Shown here one piece after another: positions 956-60,128 of a stretch of DNA of 60,128 bases; position 1 is the first letter of the stretch, and each line of letters opens with the position of its first letter. Origin of the DNA: Thiotrichaceae bacterium (GTDB lineage Bacteria > Pseudomonadota > Gammaproteobacteria > Thiotrichales > Thiotrichaceae). The DNA lies in contig JALSJU010000070.1 in NCBI GenBank assembly GCA_026989145.1, positions 1-60,128 of the forward strand, in the 5' to 3' direction. Under the pieces are notes generated by a model. It was given only the letters and a program-made list of their open reading frames with translations, made no database searches and was not told the origin of the DNA. The position numbers were made by a program, and so were the translations under genes.

Positions 956-2215
956 ATGAGTAAGTTTACTAAACCGCTAACATACTTTGCCGAGTATGCG
1001 AATGACAGAATTGATATTGATTCTGTATCTTTAGATACATTTGTTACTACAGATAACTTACTACAAAATAAGCTCGGATTAGAAGCGGCAATAAATTTAC
1101 CACCACAAAAAGGTAAAATCCCTGCATTCAAAGAAAAAGACATTTTGGTTGGGAATATACGACCGTATCTAAAAAAGATTTGGTTTGCAGACAGGGATGG
1201 CGGCTGTTCCGCTGATGTTTTGACTTTTCGCGTAAAAGAGAAGCATGAACCACTATTTGTTTATTATGGTTTATTTAGAGATGATTTTTTTAACCACATG
1301 ATGCGCGGCTCTAAGGGTACTAAAATGCCACGTGGTGATAAAAGTCAGATTTTGGATTTTGTACTCCCAAACTTTGAAAAAAACATCCAAGCAAAAATAG
1401 CCACCGTCCTCTCCACCCTAGACAAAAAAATAGCCCTCAATAATCGCATCAATACCGAGCTGGAGGCGATGGCTAAAACGCTGTATGACTACTGGTTTGT
1501 GCAGTTTGACTTTCCCATAAGCGAAGCACAGGCAAACGCCCTCGGCAAACCCGAACTCAAAGGCAAACCCTATAAAAGCTCAGGCGGAAAAATGGTGTTT
1601 AATGAAGCGTTGAAGCGGGAGATTCCTGAGGGGTGGGGGGTTGATGAAATTGTGAATGTAATCCCAGTCAAGGATGGCACGCATGATTCACCTAAGCCAA
1701 AGGAAGAAGGCTATCATTTAATAACATCAAAAAACTTAAAAAAAGAAGGTCTAGATTTTGAGAATGCGAATCTCATATCAGAAGAAGATTACATAAACAT
1801 CAATATGAGAAGCCAAGTAAATACAGGTGATATTTTATTTTCTATGATAGGAAGTATCGGTACTGTTTATAAAGTTGATGATGAAAATATTAATTTTGCA
1901 ATTAAAAATGTGGCTCTTTATAAAACATCTAATAAGACAGATATGATGAATTTTGTATATATGTACCTTCGGTCTTACGATATGCAATGCTATATGGGAA
2001 ATGTAATAGCGGGAAGTATTCAAAAGTTTATTGGGTTAGGTTCTCTAAGGTCAATGCCAATTCTTTTAGAAGAGGGTGTAATTAGTTCTTTTGAGGAAAA
2101 AACAAAAGACTTATTTAAACAAATGACTTTAATAAAACAAGAAAACCAACAACTAACCCAACTCCGAGACTGGCTACTGCCCATGCTTATGAACGGTCAA
2201 GTGACAGTGAAGTAA
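956..2215 (+). CDS. hsdS: Type I restriction-modification specificity subunit HsdS
   Basis: 419 residues, a normal length for HsdS, which recognises the two halves of the DNA target and docks HsdM and HsdR. Two target-recognition domains are visible, about residues 1-145 and 215-375. They are separated by the central conserved region (LSTLDKKIALNNRINTELEA, then LYDYWFVQFDFP) and followed by the distal conserved helix (QLTQLRDWLLPMLMNGQV). The frame is intact, but its partner hsdM is truncated by an IS, and no hsdR is in the window. The last 27 bases of the gene are part of a repeat that recurs twice downstream. The AT-rich second recognition domain differs in base use from the first, as is common after domain shuffling. 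Confidence 0.93.
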   Translation: MSKFTKPLTYFAEYANDRIDIDSVSLDTFVTTDNLLQNKLGLEAAINLPPQKGKIPAFKEKDILVGNIRPYLKKIWFADRDGGCSADVLTFRVKEKHEPLFVYYGLFRDDFFNHMMRGSKGTKMPRGDKSQILDFVLPNFEKNIQAKIATVLSTLDKKIALNNRINTELEAMAKTLYDYWFVQFDFPISEAQANALGKPELKGKPYKSSGGKMVFNEALKREIPEGWGVDEIVNVIPVKDGTHDSPKPKEEGYHLITSKNLKKEGLDFENANLISEEDYININMRSQVNTGDILFSMIGSIGTVYKVDDENINFAIKNVALYKTSNKTDMMNFVYMYLRSYDMQCYMGNVIAGSIQKFIGLGSLRSMPILLEEGVISSFEEKTKDLFKQMTLIKQENQQLTQLRDWLLPMLMNGQVTVK

Positions 2216-2290
2216 TTGCGTTTGACAGCATCCTTCGCTTCAACAAAGCACCATTTGACCTTGTGCGGTCAGCGTCCCTTGCTTCAACCA
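2189..2290 (+). repeat. hsdS-tail repeat, copy A
   Basis: A stretch of about 100 bp starting at ATGAACGGTCAAGTGACAG inside the 3' end of hsdS and running through the stop to GCTTCAACCA. It recurs almost unchanged at 2357 and 3159. This copy contains the functional hsdS stop codon and is likely the parent. An imperfect hairpin with arms near 2291-2304 and 2309-2324 separates it from copy B. Confidence 0.85.
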
Positions 2291-2323
2291 ACATCGACAC
2301 TTCCTTCGGAAGGTGTAGCGATG

Positions 2324-2473
2324 TACTTTTTAGCGCCTAGGGCGCTTTAAAAAGCAATGAACGGTCAAGTGACAGTGAAGTAGTTGCGTTTGATAGCATC
2401 CTTCGCTTCAACAAAGCACCATTTGACCTTGTGCAGTCAGTGTCCCTTGCTTCAACCATTACTCCGTCTCGCT
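2324..2473 (+). repeat. hsdS-tail repeat, copy B
   Basis: Consists of a 33-base leader with the palindrome AGCGCCTAGGGCGCT, then a near copy of copy A with a few substitutions, extended by CATTACTCCGTCTCGC. The same 33-base leader and extension are present in copy C, so B and C form direct repeats of about 150 bp flanking the IS200-like element. Confidence 0.85.
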
Positions 2474-3100
2474 TCGCGATACTATGCATACTTTATTTTC
2501 CACGCGCAAGGTTAAAACCTTCGCCTTTAGGCGAACAGATTTCATCTATGATTATGGTAGTACTTTCAAATTTAGGAGATGTCAAAGATGAAATATCGTT
2601 ATGGTAGTCACACAAAATATAACATAGAGTATCATTTTGTTTGGGTAACAAAGTACCGTTATAAAATTTTAACAGGAGGAGTTGGTGAACGACTTAGAGA
2701 TTTTGTTCGTCAGACATGTGTAGCCCATGAAATAGAAATATTGAGAGGAGTTGTGAGTAAAGAGCATGTTCATGTTTTAGTAAGCTCACCGCCCCAACTA
2801 GCTCCCAGTGAAATAATGAGAAGAATTAAAGGAAGAAGTGCCAGTAAATTGTTTGAGGAATTTCCAAGTTTAAAGAAACGATATTGGGGCAGGCATCTTT
2901 GGGCAAGAGGGTATTTTTGTGCAACGGTGGGTCAAATGACAGATGAAATGATAAAGGATTATTTGGCTCATCATTTTGAGCCTAAGAAAGATGATGGTTT
3001 TGATATTGAGCCAGACTAGACGCATCGTTTAGCCGATGCGTATCTTGGACTTTCAGTCCGTAATTCAAACCCACCAGCTTCTTTTAGCTGGTGGTTGTTT
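2474..3100 (+). mobile_element. IS200-family insertion sequence
   Basis: A single-gene IS200-type element. A left-end hairpin lies at 2520-2535 (TTCGCC TTTA GGCGAA) with an overlapping alternative stem at 2508-2521. The transposase gene follows, then a hairpin directly behind its stop (arms 3020-3027 and 3034-3041), then the strong right-end hairpin (arms 3071-3079 and 3086-3094). There is no tnpB gene, as expected for IS200 rather than IS605. It sits between two direct copies of the hsdS-tail repeat. The outer borders are approximate. Confidence 0.85.
2588..3019 (+). CDS. tnpA: IS200/IS605-family Y1 transposase TnpA
   Basis: About 143 residues, a normal size for the small HUH transposases that move single-stranded DNA using terminal hairpins. 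The HUH motif is seen as HVHVLVSSPP (near residue 58). The catalytic tyrosine lies in the C-terminal helix region, probably in the WARGYF or KDYLAHHF segments. Family signatures YHFVWVTKYRYKIL and IKGRSASKLF are present. A start at 2579 is possible, but AGGAG would then touch the start codon; ATG at 2588 gives a spacing of 9 and is preferred. The gene is intact, so the element may be active. Confidence 0.93.
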   Translation: MKYRYGSHTKYNIEYHFVWVTKYRYKILTGGVGERLRDFVRQTCVAHEIEILRGVVSKEHVHVLVSSPPQLAPSEIMRRIKGRSASKLFEEFPSLKKRYWGRHLWARGYFCATVGQMTDEMIKDYLAHHFEPKKDDGFDIEPD

Positions 3101-3126
3101 AGTGCGCCTAGGGCGCTACTAAAGCA

Positions 3127-3274
3127 ACTTTTTAGCGCCTAGGGCGCTTTAAAAAGCAATGAACGGTCAAGTGACAGTGAAGTAGTTGCGTTTGACAGCA
3201 TCCTTCGCTTTAACAAAGCACCATTTGACCTTGTGCAGTCAGCGTCCCTTGCTTCAACCATTACTCCGTCTCGC
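3127..3274 (+). repeat. hsdS-tail repeat, copy C
   Basis: Third copy, nearly identical to copy B over its whole length, including the leader palindrome AGCGCCTAGGGCGCT and the end TTACTCCGTCTCGC. A further isolated copy of the small palindrome (GCGCCTAGGGCGC) lies just left at about 3103-3115. The sequence diverges from copy B right after CTCGC. Confidence 0.85.
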
Positions 3275-27672: not shown

Positions 27673-28794
27673 ATGAAAGTCCTAAAGCGAACTCTGGTAA
27701 ATTCTCTTTATTTACTTATCCTTTTTCTTGGCTTTTCGGCTTGCCAATCGAATAGCAGCAAAAATTCATCAATAGCCAATGGTTCGTTTAGTATCTCAAA
27801 TGGAAGAATTATCGCGCCGGATGGCAGTGATTTTATCGCCAGAGGCATCAATATTTATAACGATACGTTCTATCCAAATGACACCCCCACCAAAGGGGCA
27901 GAAGCCGTCAAACAGATCGTAGAGCTATTTCCAAAAATCAATATGATTCGATACGCCTATCAAGACGATGTTCCTAATAATCTATTTTGGTCGTCAACCG
28001 CTGTTGATGACTCGTTTCTGTCTGCCTTTGTTAACGCTGCCACCTTACGCCGTATTGTTGTCTTGCTAGAAGATCATAGCACTATTGGTGAATTCAGTTG
28101 GACGCAGGGACAGATTAATACCTATAAAACGCTTGCAACGCGCTATAAGGATAACCCCTATGTGTGGTTTGGTACATTGAATGAGCCTGATGCTGCGCCA
28201 GGAGAAAAAATTGTACAAAATGTTAGGGCAACCTACGATGCAATTCGAAGTACCGGGAACAACAATATCGTTTGTATCTTGTCACGCAGCGGTGGTTTTA
28301 CGGATGAAATTCTCACTTATGCAAACTATATTCAGGGTGGTGTTGTTCCTAACTATCCAAATTCTGGTGCTGGTTCTGGCGGTTTAACTGTTACAGCGAT
28401 GCACAATGTTATCTGGGATATGCATTTTTACATGTGGCCAAATCCATCGGCAAGCGTCGCAGAAGTGGAGCAAGCACTGTGGAATGGCATCGACTCTCAA
28501 TGGGGGCCGGTTGGCGGTATTAATGTTTATCGAAGTGGCCCGAAAAGTGCTGATGGAATTATCCCCGTAATTATTGGCGAGTGGGGCAAAGATTGGGCGG
28601 GAGAGAATGTACAAGCGGTGATCTTAAAAACGCAATCATCCCCTTACCCCATCGGTAACTTAGCTTGGAACTGGAGCGCGGGTGAACCTGATATCCTGGT
28701 GTCGGGTAATGAGCGTACGGCTTATGGTGATGCGGTTAATGCTTTTATTGAAAGTGGCACGGGTGTGCCAAAGGCGGTTCGCCGCTCTTACTAG
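27673..28794 (+). CDS. Lipoprotein glycoside hydrolase, GH5-like cellulase
   Basis: 373 residues. A lipoprotein signal ends at FSAC (cysteine 24). The barrel has the GH5 pattern: RGINIYND near the start, the acid/base glutamate E171 in TLNEPDA, MHFYMW on a later strand, and the nucleophile E303 in IGEWGKD. It probably cleaves a beta-glycan at the outer membrane or periplasm. The frame is intact, unlike the three hydrolase genes that follow. An AGGATGGA sequence precedes the ATG. Confidence 0.88.
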   Translation: MKVLKRTLVNSLYLLILFLGFSACQSNSSKNSSIANGSFSISNGRIIAPDGSDFIARGINIYNDTFYPNDTPTKGAEAVKQIVELFPKINMIRYAYQDDVPNNLFWSSTAVDDSFLSAFVNAATLRRIVVLLEDHSTIGEFSWTQGQINTYKTLATRYKDNPYVWFGTLNEPDAAPGEKIVQNVRATYDAIRSTGNNNIVCILSRSGGFTDEILTYANYIQGGVVPNYPNSGAGSGGLTVTAMHNVIWDMHFYMWPNPSASVAEVEQALWNGIDSQWGPVGGINVYRSGPKSADGIIPVIIGEWGKDWAGENVQAVILKTQSSPYPIGNLAWNWSAGEPDILVSGNERTAYGDAVNAFIESGTGVPKAVRRSY

Positions 28795-29122
28795 CTCGCG
28801 CGATATTAGCTTGGGGATATTCGTCAAGTTTCTACTTCCTTTGCTACTTGTTTTTACCATAGGAATAACTATGCAAAAAAACAAATGCCTCGAACTTGAA
28901 AACTTGGCGTTTCCGGAACTCAGCTCGGTTATTCAAGTTTTAGAATAAATAACAGGCATATTAATTGCCCCGATATACAAGCATAGACTAATTTTTAATA
29001 AGCTTTAGGAGAATTTTACTTTTCATAGATTTATTTTATTTTTACAGAACTTATCGCCATTTTTATTGACTTAACGGTAATCAGCTCTCAATTTCTCGAA
29101 ATTAATTAAGGAAAATATACTT
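28795..29122. other. Gene-poor gap with a repeat fragment
   Basis: No convincing gene. It contains the MITE-related fragment at 28883-28945 and, around it, a 25-codon frame from ATG 28871 (MQKNKCLELENL...). An AAGGA sequence at 29108-29112 serves the next gene. The rest is AT-rich. Confidence 0.5.
28883..28945 (+). repeat. Fragment shared with the MITE at 59.0 kb
   Basis: TGCCTCGAACTTGAAAACTT and the following 35 bases match, with few changes, the reverse complement of 59013-59073 inside the MITE-like element near pyrF. The differences keep a reading frame (CLELENLAFPEL versus CLELENLALPEY), so both may descend from coding DNA. Confidence 0.75.
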
Positions 29123-30188
29123 ATGAGACTCACAAAGAAGTTGACCGACCTAACGCTAGTGTTGCTATTGACGTTTGGTGTTACGGGTAATTCCTATGCA
29201 ACAGAATATAGCGTTGATAAAAAAGGAGATGATGCAAATGTGGGAACTAGCGCTCAGTCCGCTAAACCTACTAAGACCCCACAAAAAAAATGAAGACGAA
29301 TGGTTTATGCCCAAGCCTTTGACAACATGGCAAATTCAATTACAAGGCGAGGTAAATACTAACTACGCTGAAGCTGAAATGTATGACATTGATTTGTATG
29401 ATTCATCAGAAGCCTTAATTGATCAATTACAAGCACATGGAAAAAATGTTATCTGTTATTTTTCAGCCGGTTCTTATGAAAACTGGCGAGTCGATGCTGA
29501 TCAATTTAATGAGTCTGATTTAGGTAATACACTTGACGGTTGGCAGGGTGAACGCTGGTTGGATATTCGATCCAATAATGTCCGCGAGATTATGAAACGC
29601 CGTTTAGACCTTGCCGAACAAAAAGGCTGTGGCGGGGTAGACCCAGATAATATGGACGGTTATTTAAATAAATCGGGTTTGCCAATAAGCGCACAAGATC
29701 AGCTTAATTATAATCGTTTTATTGCAAAAGAAGCACACAATAGAGGCTTATCCGTTGGCTTAAAAAATGACCTTGATCAGATTGAAGCATTGGTCGATCA
29801 CTTTGATTTTGCAGTGAATGAGCAATGTTTTCAATACAATGAATGTAAGCTGCTAGCTCCCTTTATCAACCAAGGAAAAGCAGTATTTAATCTTGAATAC
29901 GATGATAAGTATAAGACTGGAAAAAACGCCGAAACCCATCGAAATAAATTGTGTAAGGAAGCACGAAATATCAAGTTAAGTACCTTAATGATGCCCTTAT
30001 TACTTGATGACGAGTTTAGAGTAAGTTGTTTGGATGGCAGTGATTCAATTGGCAAAGAACAGCGGTCTGTTATTTCTAACGCAACCGGTGGTTCTTTCGG
30101 TTTAGGATGGCTTAGTATGTTATTACTGATTTTAATAAAAGCTAAGTACGACATCAAAAAAGGAGCTAAACATGAATATTCTCAATAA
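29123..30188 (+). pseudogene. GH114 endo-alpha-1,4-polygalactosaminidase-like, frameshifted
   Basis: ATG at 29123 with AAGGA upstream opens a signal peptide (TLVLLLTFGVTGNSYA) and a polar linker, then stops after an A8 run (29283-29290). The main domain resumes one frame over: EDEWFMPKPLTTWQIQLQGE, YDIDLYDSS, VICYFSAGSYENW, GGVDPDNMDGY and VGLKNDLDQ. This is the GH114 pattern for secreted enzymes cutting galactosamine polymers. Losing one A restores the full gene. The C-terminal GGSFGLGWLSMLLLILIKAK resembles a GlyGly-CTERM tail. The end overlaps the next gene. Confidence 0.82.
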
Positions 30189-31313
30189 GATTTTGCTTAT
30201 TCTGTTATTCCCAGTGATGGGGCTAAGCAGCGTATTTGCAGAAACGCAATACAAAGGCGTTAATCTTGCAGGAGCTGATTTTGGTTATGAAACTAGGCCA
30301 GGCACGTTCGGTACACACTACACTTATCCAACTCACGAAGAGGTTAATTATTTTGTTAGTAAAGGAATGAATATTTTTCGTCTACCGTTTCTCTGGGAGC
30401 GCTTACAAAATGATCAGAACGGTCCGTTAAATATGGAAGAATAGCTAGGATAAAAGACTTTGTAAACTATGCTAACTCAAAGCAGGCTACCGTTATTTTA
30501 GATCCACACAATAGTGCGCGTTATTATGATGAGATTATTGGCATTGATGGTGACTTAGGTGCGCTACCTGTAGGGGCATTTACAGACTTCTGGGCAAAGT
30601 TAGCCAATCAATTTAAAAATAATAATAAAGTTATTTTCGGTTTGATGAATGAACCTCATGACATGCCCTCAGAACTGTGGAGAGATAATGCCAATGCTGC
30701 AATTTCTGCAATCCGAGCGACAGGTTCAACGAATCTAATATTAGTTCCTGGCAATGCATGGACAGGGGCGCACTCTTGGAATGATAATAGTTACGGCACA
30801 CCCAATGGCATTGTGCTAAAAGATATTGTTGATCCTGCTAATAACTATGCTTTTGAAGTACACCAGTATCAAGATGTCGACTCATCTGGGACATCGGATC
30901 AATGTGTCAATGAAACTGTTGGTGCGGAGCGACTTGTTGAGTTTACAACATGGCTTCGTGAAAATAACCAACGTGGTTTTCTCGGTGAATTTTCTGGTGG
31001 GCGTAACACCACCTGTCTAAATGGTTTGGATAATATGCTTAAGTATTTAGATATAAATAAAGACCTGTGGTTAGGCTGGACATATTGGGCAGCTGGCCCT
31101 TGGTGGGGTGAGGATATTTTCACACTTGAACCTAAAAATGGTAATGACCGCCCTCAAATGGCAGTTTTAGCTGATCATATGAAGGATAATAAGCCAACTG
31201 ATAGTAATAGTGGAGGAGGAGTATTCGCAACTATCAGCTTACTTTTTCTTGGCGGGTTATTTATGAGGCGAAAATCTCTATTTAGAGTTTTGCATGAAAA
31301 AAATGAGATATGA
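30172..31313 (+). pseudogene. GH5 endoglucanase-like with GlyGly-CTERM-like tail, frameshifted
   Basis: A signal peptide ends at SVFA. The first part reads NLAGADFGYE and LPFLWERLQ, then hits TAG at about 30442. The frame continues shifted as ARIKDFVNYANSKQATVILD, FGLMNEPHD (acid/base E at 30651) and LGEFSGG (nucleophile E at 30987). Restoring one T near 30442 gives an intact GH5 protein of about 380 residues. The C-terminus SGGGVFATISLLFLGGLFMR plus RK is a good match to a GlyGly-CTERM-type sorting signal. A GGAG sequence precedes the start. Confidence 0.85.
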
Positions 31314-31340: not shown

Positions 31341-31630
31341 TTCTTTAAGGAGAGACTGATCAAGTCCCATAAAATTCTGCTGGTTTACAAGGTATCAAAT
31401 CCTAGGCATGGTTTTTGAGAATGGTTGCTCCCTTCACAAAAATCATAACAACGGAGTTGATGCCTTGTAAACCAGCCCTAACGGGGCTTAGCCAAAAACC
31501 CAGACACTTTGTTATAGTTACTTACAAGGCAATAAGCATTCCGCGTAACTATGCCTTGATTCTGAGTTTTTGGCGTTGCCATAATTTATGGGACTTGATC
31601 AGGCTCTCCTTTAAGGAAAGCCTGATCAAG
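31341..31630. mobile_element. MITE-like element, copy 1, with an extra terminal repeat
   Basis: About 277 bp bounded by inverted repeats of some 35 bases (31341-31378 and 31578-31617), each of the form TTAAGG...CTGATCAAGTCCCATAA. Directly behind the right end is one more terminal repeat facing the other way, making a hairpin with arms 31594-31605 and 31619-31630. The interior (ACAACGGAG ... GGGGCTTAGCCAAA ... CCCAG) matches the element at 59.0 kb in the reverse orientation. No transposase is encoded. Confidence 0.85.
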
Positions 31631-31639
31631 TTTATAAAG

Positions 31640-32979
31640 GTGACGCTATTATTTGTTAGCATTCTATGGCTTTCTAGCTGTGGGGGTAGCAGCGGCTCTA
31701 ACGCTGAAATTACTCCTCCCAATACTAATGTCATTAAAATAAATATAGATTGGGAGAGAGTCGTTCGTAAAGTGCCTTTGTATGCTTATGGTATTAATAG
31801 TCCCGCAAATTTTATTCCTGCATATTCTAATAACTTAACATTCATGAGTAACCTGAAATCCATTACCCAAAAAAAGGGCTTCATTTGTTTGCACGGCTGG
31901 GGAATGCTTGGGGATAGCCCGGAAGCATGGCAAAAAAATGGTGTGTGGGATTCAACCAAAATTAACCAAGCATTGAGACCGCTCGTAGAGGATGGCTACA
32001 CTGTGATGATAAATGTCCCCAGTGGCCCACAAGGTGAAAATGATTACCGTGACCCAAAAGCTTTTGCCAAGTTTTGCGCTGACTTGGTTAGAACCGTCAA
32101 TATTGAACATGGGTTGGGGATAAAGTATTGGGAAATACCCAATGAGAGAGAGTCTGATTTTAGCTATCCAGGACTATCTGTTAGCCAAGTGGCAATACTC
32201 ATCAAAACAGCTTCAGTAGCAATGAAAGCAGTAGATCCAAGTATTAAAGTAGGTGGCCAGCAACAGCATGGGTTAATGTTGATTTTCTTGTTGCCTTAGT
32301 CGATAAAGCTTATCCCGATATTGATTTTATAACTGCACATACCTATGCAGGGGATGGTTCTAATAGTTTAGAGAATGCCTATGATATTGCTCAATTCGCC
32401 ACCACTGACCTAGCTGAACTTCGCACCAGAGTGAATGCGATTTTTGCCACGGCTATGTTTTCGGAGAATACATACTTACCCATCTATCTCACTGAATACA
32501 ATATTTCTCATCAAGGAAGCCCAAGGGTTCAATCTTATCAAGGTGCAGTTTATGATGCATTAATACTTACAGAGAGCATTAGCGCAGGTGCAGATGCTTC
32601 ACTGTATTGGGCGATGGCTCCTTACAGTGATATGTCACTGCTGGATGGGGATACACGCACTGGAAGCTCCTATCTCTATGAAATATTCAATCAATCATTT
32701 CATGGTGACTTGGTCAGCAGTCAGTCCCAACAAGCAAAAAAGGTAACGAGTTATGCCGTGTTTAATAAAACTAGGAGCGTGCATTCGTTTAGTTTAATCA
32801 ATCGTACAGCGAAGCCTCAAAGGGTTAAACTGTATTTTGAGCATTGGCTACCTTCTAAATTATCGTGGAATCTTTGGGATGCTGAAAATGACTTCATACA
32901 ACGAGAAACCAGTTGGGTTGAATTAGGGAAAGGCGATTTTGTGTTATCGCCTTATTCTGTTAATGTTTTTGTCGAGTAG
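31640..32979 (+). pseudogene. GH39-like lipoprotein glycosidase, 5'-truncated and frameshifted
   Basis: The hydrophobic segment VTLLFVSILWLSSC is a lipoprotein signal, but the DNA before it belongs to the MITE-like element, so the native start is lost; GTG at 31640 is the only nearby in-frame start and lacks a ribosome binding site. The domain shows LYAYGINSPANF, WEIPNERE (acid/base region) and KVGG, then a frameshift near 32262. It resumes as ATAWVNVDFLVALVDKAYPD, ITAHTYAGDG and YLTEYN (nucleophile region). An added C after KVGG would restore GGPATA, a GH39-type motif. Confidence 0.78.
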
Positions 32980-49016: not shown

Positions 49017-49370
49017 TTAGGCAATTAGCTTTAACTCTGCGATTTTCGTGATTTCTATGGTGCGGTGAAAGTAATAAGTCTGTGTGATATTATAGGTGTG
49101 TTGTTTTAAAAACTGTCGTTGTTCAAACGTTTCTGCACCTTGCTGCAACAAAGTCCAATGAGCGGCCTAAGTTTATAATATTTTTTACCAACGTATAATA
49201 ACCATTATTGCCTGGTAGGTCTTCAATAAATCCTTTATCAGTTTTAAGTGTGGTAACGGGTAAGTCTTTTAGATCAACTAAAGAAGAATAATCAGTACCA
49301 AAATCATCTGTGACTATCTTCACTTCATACCTAGTTCGCGCATACCTTTCAACTCATCAATGGTATAATG
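49017..49370 (-). pseudogene. EAL-domain (c-di-GMP phosphodiesterase) remnant
   Basis: The minus strand reads ELKGMRELGMKIVTDDFGTD, then YSSLVDLKDLPVTTLKTDKG, FIEDLPG and NIINLGRSLDFVAA, which is the EAL core DDFGTGYSSL...LKIDRSFI. The frame breaks near 49146. It continues in another frame as GAETFEQRQFLKQHTYNITQ and TYYFHRTIEI, the EAL C-terminal end (GVET.EQ..FL...GYYF.RP). The N-terminal half with the EAL motif itself is missing. The remainder of the 48893-49421 gap shows no gene. Confidence 0.78.
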
Positions 49371-49421
49371 CTAGAAATTTGGCATTGCTAGAATTTACAG
49401 GAGCAGCTACTAGTTAGGAGT

Positions 49422-57818: not shown

Positions 57819-59006
57819 ATGGTAGAACTGTTATATTTACTGCTTCCAGTTGCTTTCTATGCGGGCTGGAGAGCATCAAGAAAAAGTCTTTCTCAGAGTC
57901 AGAAACAACAACGAAAGCTTTCGGATAATTTTGTAAAAGGGATTAACTTTTTACTCAGTGAAGAGCCTGATAAAGCTTTAGAGGTCTTTTTAAATAATCA
58001 AGATATTGATGAATATACTGCTGAAACCTACCAACTTTTAGGTAATTTGTTTAGAGATCGCGGTGAAGTCGATCGCGCGTTACGAGTTCATCAAAATTTA
58101 ATTTCACGGCCCAGTTTAAATGCTGAGCAAAAGCAAAAAGCCATGTTTTTACTTGGTAAAGATTTTTTTTCTGCGGGTATGTTAGACCGTGCAGAAAGTG
58201 TGTTTCGAGAGCTGTTGAATGACTCATCATTATCGCGAAGAGTTTCAAAGGCCTTAATCTGTGCTGCTTTACGGACTATTTATGAGCAAACGCAAGAATG
58301 GCAAAAAGCAATTGAAGCAATAGAATGTTATAGTAAAAATAATACAGAAAACTCAAATACTGTAAAGTCTGAAAGCAAGAAGCTGATAGCACACTACTAT
58401 TGCGAATTAGCGGATGAGGCTTTACATCAAGGAAAGCTTAATAAAGTTGATGACTTACTCTTAAAAGCAAAAAAATCATTTAAACACTCGACCCGTTTAA
58501 TGACCTTGGAAGGGGATATTGCTTATCATCAAAAAAACTATAAAGGCGCTTTAAAATATTATTCAAAGGCTATTAAAGAAGATACGCGTTTATTAAGCAT
58601 GCTTTTTACTCAACTTGAAGAGTCTGCTAAATCTACAGCCAATATTGATATATTGAAGTCAGATCTACTTAAAATGTATCAGAAGAAAAAAGATAAAAGT
58701 GTTTTCGAGACGCTTTTAATTCTTGCTAAAAAGTATAATGGTTCAGCAGATATAGATGCGCTTATTGCGGCAGAGCTATCAACACAGCGGTTAAATATTG
58801 AATCTATCTATAGGGCATCTGACTATACAATTAATAGTGTTAATACGCTAGATGATAAACACGGGTTGTTGTTAGTGAACCAAGCGCTAGGAAGTTATTT
58901 AAATGGGGTGCCCGCTTTTAGATGTGAACACTGTGGCTATAAGATGCATGACTATCTTTGGCGTTGCCCTGCCTGCCATGAGTGGGATTCAATAGATCAT
59001 GCTTAA
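57819..59006 (+). CDS. lapB: LPS assembly regulator LapB
   Basis: 395 residues. LapB anchors FtsH-dependent control of LpxC at the inner membrane. The start MVELLYLLLPVAFYAGW is the membrane anchor. About six TPR repeats follow, with GNLFRDRGEVDRALRVHQNL and AGMLDRAESVFRELL. The C-terminal rubredoxin-like metal site is CEHCGYKMHDYLWRCPACHE. The usual lapA between ihfB and lapB is absent. The stop codon lies inside the left end of a MITE-like element, so a few terminal residues may have been replaced. Confidence 0.95.
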   Translation: MVELLYLLLPVAFYAGWRASRKSLSQSQKQQRKLSDNFVKGINFLLSEEPDKALEVFLNNQDIDEYTAETYQLLGNLFRDRGEVDRALRVHQNLISRPSLNAEQKQKAMFLLGKDFFSAGMLDRAESVFRELLNDSSLSRRVSKALICAALRTIYEQTQEWQKAIEAIECYSKNNTENSNTVKSESKKLIAHYYCELADEALHQGKLNKVDDLLLKAKKSFKHSTRLMTLEGDIAYHQKNYKGALKYYSKAIKEDTRLLSMLFTQLEESAKSTANIDILKSDLLKMYQKKKDKSVFETLLILAKKYNGSADIDALIAAELSTQRLNIESIYRASDYTINSVNTLDDKHGLLLVNQALGSYLNGVPAFRCEHCGYKMHDYLWRCPACHEWDSIDHA

Positions 59007-59333
59007 GGAGTCTCTGAATAACCTGGCTGTATTCTGGCAACGCCAAGTTTTCAAGTTCGAGGCATTGATTTTAAGTATAGTCATTCTGCAATTTCCAGCA
59101 TCAAGGCATCTGAGCTTTTAATGAACGCCTGTGGCATGGTGCAACGAGCCTTTAAAGTGAACATAACACAGAGGCTGGGAATTTGGCTAAGCCCCAAAGG
59201 GTAAGGCTCTAGGCAGCATCTCCGTTGTTGTATTTCTCATGAAGGCAATAAGCATTCATTTCAAAATACGCCTAGGATATACTGCCCTAGAGACTTACAG
59301 AATTTTATGGGACTTAATCAGGGTTTCCTTAAG
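59002..59333. mobile_element. MITE-like element, copy 2A
   Basis: About 332 bp between CTTAAGG-type ends. The right end (59294-59333) carries the AGAATTTTATGGGACTTAAT type repeat; the left end is more degenerate. Read in reverse, the interior matches copy 1 (CCATAAAATTCTG, TCCTAGGC, ACAACGGAG, GGGGCTTAGCCAAA, CCCAG). It has no transposase. The left end overlaps the lapB stop, and the right CTTAAG is shared with element 2B. Confidence 0.85.
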
Positions 59334-59493
59334 GAATTCCTGATTAAGTCGATTAGAATTTAGCGCAGAAAAATCTGTCGCTATTTTTCATGAAGTGAGA
59401 CGTAATAGTTATTCTATTGCGCCGATCTTCGTGGAAAATATCGACGGATTTGGCAAGCTAAAAATAATTGGACTTAATCAGGAATTCCTTAAG
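59328..59493. mobile_element. MITE-like element, copy 2B, perfect 23-bp TIRs
   Basis: 166 bp bounded by perfect inverted repeats (59328-59350 and 59471-59493) that start CTTAAGGAATTCCTGATTAA. The 120-bp interior differs from copies 1 and 2A, holds an inner inverted region (GCAGAAAAATCTGTCGC) and encodes nothing obvious. It abuts 2A head to head through a shared CTTAAG. Confidence 0.9.
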
Positions 59494-59553
59494 TGAGTGG
59501 TTGGTGTTTGAGAAAGTCTAATAATAGAATTTGAAATGGGTAAATACTGAATT

Positions 59554-60128
59554 ATGAGCAGTAAATTAATAATAGCACTTGATTACTCAACCGCTGATGA
59601 GGCTTTACGTTTTGTTCGTTTGTTGAGTCCAAATTTGTGCCGATTAAAAATTGGTTTTGAGTTGTTTATTGTTTCAGGGCCTGATCTTGTTAAAAAACTT
59701 GTTGATATGGGTTTTGATATTTTTTTGGATCTTAAGTTTCATGATATCCCAAATACAGTAGCATCTGCATGTCGTGCTGCATCAGGTTTAGGTGTGTGGA
59801 TGATGAATGTGCATGCGAGTGGCAGCGATGTCATGATGCGTACCGCCAAACAAGCCTTAATTGATTGCGACTCCTCTGTAAAACTCATTGCTGTAACAAT
59901 ACTTACCTCGATGGATGCTCAGCAATTATCTAAAGTTAATATTGCTTATCAACCTAATGAGCAAGTTAAACATCTAGCAACACTTACGCAGAAATCAGGT
60001 TTAGATGGTGTAGTCTGTTCGGCGCAAGAAGCTAAAATTTTAAGAAGGCAACATGGTAAGGAGTTTCTCCTGGTAACACCGGGTATTCGACCTGAAGGTT
60101 CGGAGAAAGGGGATCAAAAACGAATTAT
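59554..60128 (+). CDS. pyrF: Orotidine 5'-phosphate decarboxylase, 5' part
   Basis: The window ends inside the gene; 191 codons are present. It makes UMP, the last step of pyrimidine synthesis. The start MSSKLIIALDYSTADEALRF is typical, KIGFELF follows, and the catalytic motif DLKFHDIPNTVASA (Asp, Lys and Asp of the active site) is intact. GLDGVVCSAQEA and VTPGIRPEG show the phosphate-binding part. It follows lapB as in relatives, but after about 500 bases of MITE-like DNA. Confidence 0.96.
   Translation, partial: MSSKLIIALDYSTADEALRFVRLLSPNLCRLKIGFELFIVSGPDLVKKLVDMGFDIFLDLKFHDIPNTVASACRAASGLGVWMMNVHASGSDVMMRTAKQALIDCDSSVKLIAVTILTSMDAQQLSKVNIAYQPNEQVKHLATLTQKSGLDGVVCSAQEAKILRRQHGKEFLLVTPGIRPEGSEKGDQKRI

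Follow-up and report, generated by a model that had tools for sequence, protein, structure and literature searches.

Two short elements that lie back to back between lapB and pyrF in an uncultured Thiotrichaceae bacterium, here named 2A and 2B, are in our judgment (probability of about 0.9) non-autonomous miniature inverted-repeat transposable elements (MITEs) of a single IS5-type family. This family targets TTAA and also inserts next to its own copies, and 2A is a chimeric member. The window, i.e., the whole stretch of DNA analyzed, is 60,128 nt long, and its relevant features are listed in Table 1. In kind, the elements are ordinary, for IS5-type MITEs are already known. In the process that we propose, the transposase would be supplied by a separate insertion sequence (IS) of ~1.2 kb, would recognize the terminal inverted repeat (TIR) GGA-NNNN-CTGATYAAGTC, and would insert the element into TTAA with duplication of the TTAA. 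One element would have entered the TTAA overlapping the lapB stop codon, with the duplication restoring the stop, and a second would then have entered one of the resulting TTAA sites, such that both came to have one TTAA in common. Such abutment would recur because the preferred target, TTAA-G-n-A-A, resembles the TTAA-GGAA or similar sequence at element edges. The locus is a clean example, in a lineage without cultured members, of a way in which tandem arrays can be built: the target preferred by the transposon family resembles the sequence of its own ends.

Table 1. Positions in the window of the lapB-pyrF locus, its two MITEs, and related elements.
Feature	Position	Strand	Basis or remark
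lapB, 395 aa	57819..59006	+	Pfam TPR and Zn_ribbon_LapB, sequence
lapB TAA stop	59004-59006		inside target TTAA 59003-59006, sequence
2A left target duplication, TTAA	59003..59006	.	
2A, 322-bp chimeric MITE, X-type left end and Y-type right end	59007..59328	+	
2A left module, family X	59007..59089	+	94% over 81 to G000:C9:40739-40998
2A right module, family Y	59090..59328	+	98% over 240 to G000:C8:10578-10856
One TTAA common to 2A and 2B	59329..59332	.	
2B, 156-bp MITE, end-to-end hairpin	59333..59488	+	perfect 18-bp TIRs
2B right target duplication, TTAA	59489..59492	.	
pyrF (OMP decarboxylase)	59554..60128	+	gene interrupted by window end
Copy 1, 261 bp	31349..31609	-	Y-type ends around X-like interior
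TTTAA separating copy 1 from truncated neighbor	31610..31614	.	neighbor starts at 31615
X-type element remnant	28825..28935	-	83-85% over 111

The initial annotation credited 2B with perfect TIRs of 23 bp. Direct reading and a repeat search both recovered this perfect inverted repeat (CTTAAGGAATTCCTGATTAAGTC at 59328-59350, inverted at 59471-59493), but the TIR proper is the 18-bp GGAATTCCTGATTAAGTC (59333-59350 and 59471-59488). The rest consists of TTAA plus one base, which on the outer left is the final C of 2A (59328) and on the outer right a G of the flank (59493). Likewise, a single junction is indeed common to both elements, but the duplicated motif is TTAA rather than the CTTAAG given previously. 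2A starts with GGAGTCTCTGAATAACC, and its right end is GGAAACCCTGATTAAGTC in inverted form. No open reading frame of at least 80 aa exists inside either element, and their MITE-like nature was correctly recognized: they are 156 and 322 bp in length, non-coding, bounded by TIRs, and represented by many dispersed copies with target duplications.

The suggestion that the TTAA-containing ends reflect the target is borne out by a 4-bp target site duplication. Of 50 delimited elements in the same genome, 35 have the same 4 bp on either side, compared with a mean of 23.8 in shuffled sets, and none of 1000 shuffles reached 35. Lengths of 2, 3, 6, 7, and 8 bp showed no excess over shuffles, and a length of 5 bp gave two matches vs. 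0.2 expected (13 of 1000 shuffles). TTAA is the left flank of 33 and the right flank of 35 of the 50 MITE copies. Eight of the 35 matched duplications have other sequences (TTAT, TAAA, and TTTA twice each, TTAG and ATAA once each), and for this reason an artifact of the palindromic TTAA cannot explain the duplication. In the remaining 15 elements, the flanking 4 bp are not identical.

At the lapB-pyrF locus, the TAA stop makes up the final three bases of the first TTAA, and the insertion therefore left the lapB frame closed at an unchanged place. We could read this junction in 10 of the 11 relatives of the same genus, with G003 having no usable junction. The comparison with empty sites that had been proposed was borne out in part: a native and empty TTAA is present at the lapB stop in four of the 10 (G006, G007, G008, and G011), but five (G001, G002, G005, G009, and G010) have neither a TTAA nor a family element there. 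In G004, the same TTAA is occupied by a short truncated 2B-like element of its own in reversed orientation (score against 2B of 35.2 in reverse and 24.2 forward, vs. at most 16.4 in 200 shuffles). By eye, the lapB-pyrF gap of G010 (L099:1352-1472) contains a different inverted repeat of ~120 bp after lapB, with GTGTCT...AGACAC ends. On the other side of the locus, contig C118 (L025, G000:C118:1-1603) starts inside a 2B sequence identical to that of the window (100% over query 64-166) and then carries the beginning of pyrF again (stretch 164-736, 100% identity) in a frame of 230 codons. The right end of the window (60128) looks like an assembly overlap with C118 as its continuation; the 2B sequence on C118 is the window's own and cannot be counted as a second copy.

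The family is abundant in its host and extends to related genomes. Within the host assembly (G000, 2.63 Mb, 133 contigs), 25 places, including the window, match 150 or more of the 166 positions of the 2B query, with identities of 68-100%. The degenerate end TAAGGANNNNCTGATNAAGTC, with two mismatches allowed, was found 126 times in this genome compared with two for a reversed control pattern, and the family ends are not chance matches. At E ≤ 0.001, the 2B query was matched in 14 of 95 genomes, including the host itself, and thus in 13 of 94 relatives: seven of the 11 other genomes of the genus, six of 48 of the family, and none of 35 of the class. Some of these matches in relatives (e.g., in G031 and G001) are short and correspond to an end or a part only. 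Of 15 relatives tested for exact ends, 12 have them, and the control gave zero matches. One genome of the same genus (G009) contains 213 exact TIR ends together with short derivatives (66 and 105 bp) that adjoin 2B, which represents a burst of the MITE family; its assembly has no match at E ≤ 1e-5 to the partner transposase described below. We searched for the 2A and 2B DNA on phages and plasmids and for one exact 2B pattern in IMG/VR, found neither, and thus know of no vector for spread between genera.

2B can fold end to end into a hairpin (-77.6 kcal/mol, z -12.9). In 38 copies from nine genomes (of 58 delimited), 96.6% of cells pair, and the pairs changed on both sides number 13 vs. 7.3 when shuffled (cells: 79 vs. 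21.7; 0 of 500 shuffles reach either), although the copies are related and the structure is that of the window copy, a choice that favors it, such that these counts are not independent tests. Folded as RNA, the plus strand (GATTAAGTCG first) is the more stable one in all 38 copies, with a mean of -71.4 compared with -49.4 for the minus strand. Opposed G-T outnumbers opposed A-C by 39 to 19 over all opposed positions with wobble uncredited (p 0.012), and by 7 to 3 when majority states only are considered (p 0.34). Substitutions within genomes, considered for copies with at least three changes and without copy C83, preserve the plus-strand hairpin better than random substitutions of like type (mean z -1.50, p 1e-6, n = 23); for the minus strand z is -0.59 (p 0.013), and the paired comparison of strands gives p 4e-5, all values being inflated by shared ancestry.

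The strong fold, the compensatory changes, the pairing kept across copies, and the strand difference would all suit elements that are host-useful hairpin RNA repeats similar to ERIC (the enterobacterial repeat unit RU-1), with a present role in transcripts and transposition only in their history. We consider this rather unlikely. The relatedness of the copies and the use of one copy for the structure weigh against the fold statistics, and the TSD and TIR anatomy of the elements is complete. Moreover, 32 copies of 2B showed no orientation bias relative to the genes beside them (19:13 upstream, p 0.38; 18:13 downstream, p 0.47), and on that account we make no claim of a host function. In 58900-59700, Rfam gave no match above a gathering score, the two weak miRNA matches being far below, and a scan for promoters and terminators found no excess over shuffles. 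The strand difference is also not general. In ten long Y-type elements it has a median of 2.2 kcal/mol and the strand opposite to the orientation in 2A is stabler in nine, this opposite strand is stabler by 2-14 kcal/mol in four short Y-type elements, and it is so in two of three X-type elements.

A further feature concerns TIR positions 4-7, where variation is much greater than in the remaining TIR. In 21 pairs of 2B copies from the host genome with interiors that are <3% different, 37% of the positions in these tips differ, compared with 3% in the other TIR positions. Within an element, the left and right tips are more alike than expected from shuffling: 1.65 vs. 2.16 mismatches in 17 of the host's 2B copies (p 0.001), 1.24 vs. 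1.51 in 50 copies shuffled within genomes (0 of 5000), and 0.61 vs. 0.90 in 18 Y-type elements (p 0.015); nonetheless, many elements have mismatched tips, and the compared pairs are not independent. The copies in G006 have zero tip variation in 21 pairs (interior 4.7% different), and those in G009 have little (7%, interior 2.6%). Correction of one end by the other would result in matched tips, and so would the exchange of whole TIRs between elements. A tentative idea, which we are inclined to doubt, is that selection may act on 2B as a hairpin of one strand, either RNA or single-stranded DNA, with a rapidly changing four-base tip tag kept alike at both ends, such that the ends are mutually corrected or must match for joint use. 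If the matched tips and the strand-biased hairpin are real, the mutual correction of MITE ends would become testable, as would the selection of a MITE as RNA without benefit to the host.

The abutment of 2A and 2B is not an isolated case. In stretches from the host genome and eight relatives, outward-facing ends exactly 4 bp apart were found as 23 pairs from seven of the nine genomes, and any other single spacing from -5 to 150 bp accounts for at most two pairs; the motif used was loose, and its 485 "ends" include chance matches. The stretches of the relatives were chosen for holding a 2B copy and not for abutment. Exceptions to the 4-bp spacing include copy 1, which is separated from its neighbor by 5 bp (TTTAA), and a pair on C124 with 3 bp. 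Considering 83 elements that have TTAA or a sequence one mismatch from it on both sides, 33 of 165 flanks adjoin another end, compared with 13 of 2758 background TTAA half-sites; in the host genome alone, 11 of 79 flanks do so.

The target preference was tabulated from 124 isolated flanks, with the 33 abutting and eight remnant-like flanks of the 165 left out. TTAA is followed by G in 49% of these vs. 15% of the background (p 1e-18), and A is enriched at +3 (51% vs. 30%, p 1e-6) and at +4 (47% vs. 30%, p 4e-5). The element edge reads TTAA-GGA(A/G), and each insertion therefore supplies two favored half-sites. According to a rough estimate, the half-site preference probably explains part of the abutment but not all of it. 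Self-adjacent insertion is well supported as a family-wide habit. Insertion next to an element's own ends also occurs in IS30 and IS911. In a literature search on tandem, chimeric, or self-adjacent MITEs and ISs, we recognized no description of such arrays, which is weak evidence of absence, and a search for IS5 MITEs with TTAA returned no paper.

Abutting pairs could also be explained if clusters of elements were duplicated or recombined, without repeated insertion into an existing TTAA. Two X-type elements on contigs C89 and C96 of the host genome (G000) have interiors that look alike over the first 115 nt, and both adjoin 2B in the same orientation, which is the pattern that copying of an X-2B unit would give. 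However, the outer flanks of these two pairs are unlike, and the 23 pairs with 4-bp spacing are spread over seven of nine genomes and involve varied kinds of ends (X, Y, 2B, and short derivatives). Furthermore, self-adjacency is already predicted by the TTAA-GnAA preference of isolated insertions. We thus regard cluster duplication as very unlikely and repeated insertion as the probable source of the abutting pairs.

Judged by its sequence relationships, 2A is a chimera of two families, with X(1-83) joined to Y(40-279). Among the matches listed from 14 genomes searched, the whole of 2A occurs only at the window locus, and its two parts occur separately at many places. The reported resemblance between the interior of 2A and copy 1 does exist but is weak (70% over 182 aligned columns to 31356-31530), and both parts of 2A have closer relatives elsewhere in the genome (Table 1). 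Copy 1 itself has an X-like interior (87% over 122). X and Y have a common 16-bp block at positions 25-40, which is a possible aid to crossover. We infer that a composite formed from adjacent elements and was followed by internal loss. Arrays bring ends of different families together and may be the origin of chimeras such as 2A.

As noted in the initial annotation, the window has no transposase of this family; a tblastn search with the partner transposase gave only a 30-aa match with an E-value of 4.1. The recommended search for a full transposon with these ends was fruitful in a relative of the same family (G031, genus g3), where a complete IS occupies L076:94-1266, and the host assembly has a remnant only. 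The ends of this IS (94-111 and 1249-1266) have no mismatch, and both are bordered by TTAA with another element end beyond. Its open frame has 332 codons from stop to stop, with the first Met at residue 12. The protein scored 325.7 bits against the NCBIfam IS5 model NF033581 (cut-off 140) and 101.3 against PF01609 (cut-off 23), and PF05598 was also above its cut-off. Based on these profile scores, the partner transposase is of the IS5 family and the DDE type. A piggyBac-type or other non-IS5 TTAA-specific transposase, for which the TTAA target and its duplication might speak, is hardly credible as the mover of this family, given that a complete element with these TIRs encodes an IS5-family transposase and that an alphaproteobacterial MAG (L112:1419-2600) contains a transposase frame of 50% identity that also has TTAAGGAA-TCTGAA ends. 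The latter frame is flanked by TTAAGGAAAGTCTGAA and TTTAAGGAACGTCTGAA, which suggests that the group characterized by TTAA and GGAA-type ends may be wider than the family of 2A and 2B.

Further transposase frames, each with at least one such end beside it, were found in G025 (93% over residues 52-332, one in-frame TGA) and in two genomes of the same genus as the window, namely G010 (89% over 89-332, one TAG counted) and G004 (85% over 11-166). There was no match to the partner transposase at E ≤ 1e-5 in 11 of the 18 genomes searched. The sole match in the host genome is a fragment (C65:308-619) with 42% identity, and the intact cognate transposase may have been lost or may be missing from this fragmented assembly. 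The characterization of the family as active and moved in trans is therefore retained in part: the transposase lies outside of the window and would act in trans, but the host genome, with only that 42%-identical fragment, does not bear out present activity. A search of the host genome with PF01609 and PF05598 found, besides fragments on C65, a transposase on C44, which was rejected as the partner because it is unrelated; its locus (L061, G000:C44) has no family TIR end at up to three mismatches. This transposase of 384 aa (PF01609) lies in a complete-looking IS of an unrelated family (L061 ~367-1646) with inverted ends around CACTAGTGTCCGGTTAAAAACC, and we take it to be of the IS4 type.

The family shares several traits with known systems. 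The consensus duplication of IS5 is Py-T-A-Pu, with TTAA among its insertion sites (PMC5493358), and a YTAR target is also given for IS5 in PMC10359306. The present family agrees with the description of IS5 in PMC5493358 in its 4-bp duplication and in TTAA fitting Py-T-A-Pu. It differs from E. coli IS5, described there as using mostly CTAG, in using mostly TTAA with a preferred G-n-A-A extension, and its minority duplications TTAT, ATAA, TAAA, and TTTA depart from Py-T-A-Pu. By description only, 2B resembles MITEPsy1 of Pseudomonas syringae, which is short (100 nt), non-coding, bounded by an 18-nt inverted repeat, and tentatively assigned to IS5 ("IS5?"; PMC3189936). In contrast, MITEPsy1 has few copies (five chromosomal and one on a plasmid), and the passage describing it mentions no tandems that share a target duplication (PMC3189936). 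The enterobacterial repeat units RU-1 (127 bp) and RU-2 (168 bp) are, as described in PMC2759123, likewise intergenic, MITE-like, and similar in size. Among sulfur-oxidizing bacteria, MITEs are also described as common in Candidatus Thiomargarita nelsonii, but one of those has a 10-bp direct and a 19-bp inverted repeat and the other has TATAG repeats, and the account of them states that no parental IS was found (PMC4853749).

Several minor observations were made elsewhere in the window. A truncated element end adjoins copy 1 at 31615-31760, and directly downstream of it is a stretch with a GTG start that looks, by eye, like a lipoprotein signal. Two genes with GH5 cellulase domains and one GH114 gene are clustered at 27673-31313, beside the X-type remnant and copy 1. 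A segment of 30 bp at 49368-49397 has a 90% match to positions 22-51 of the Y element. Finally, a 148-nt repeat is present in three copies at 2157-3274, with 74% and 98% identity to the reference copy.
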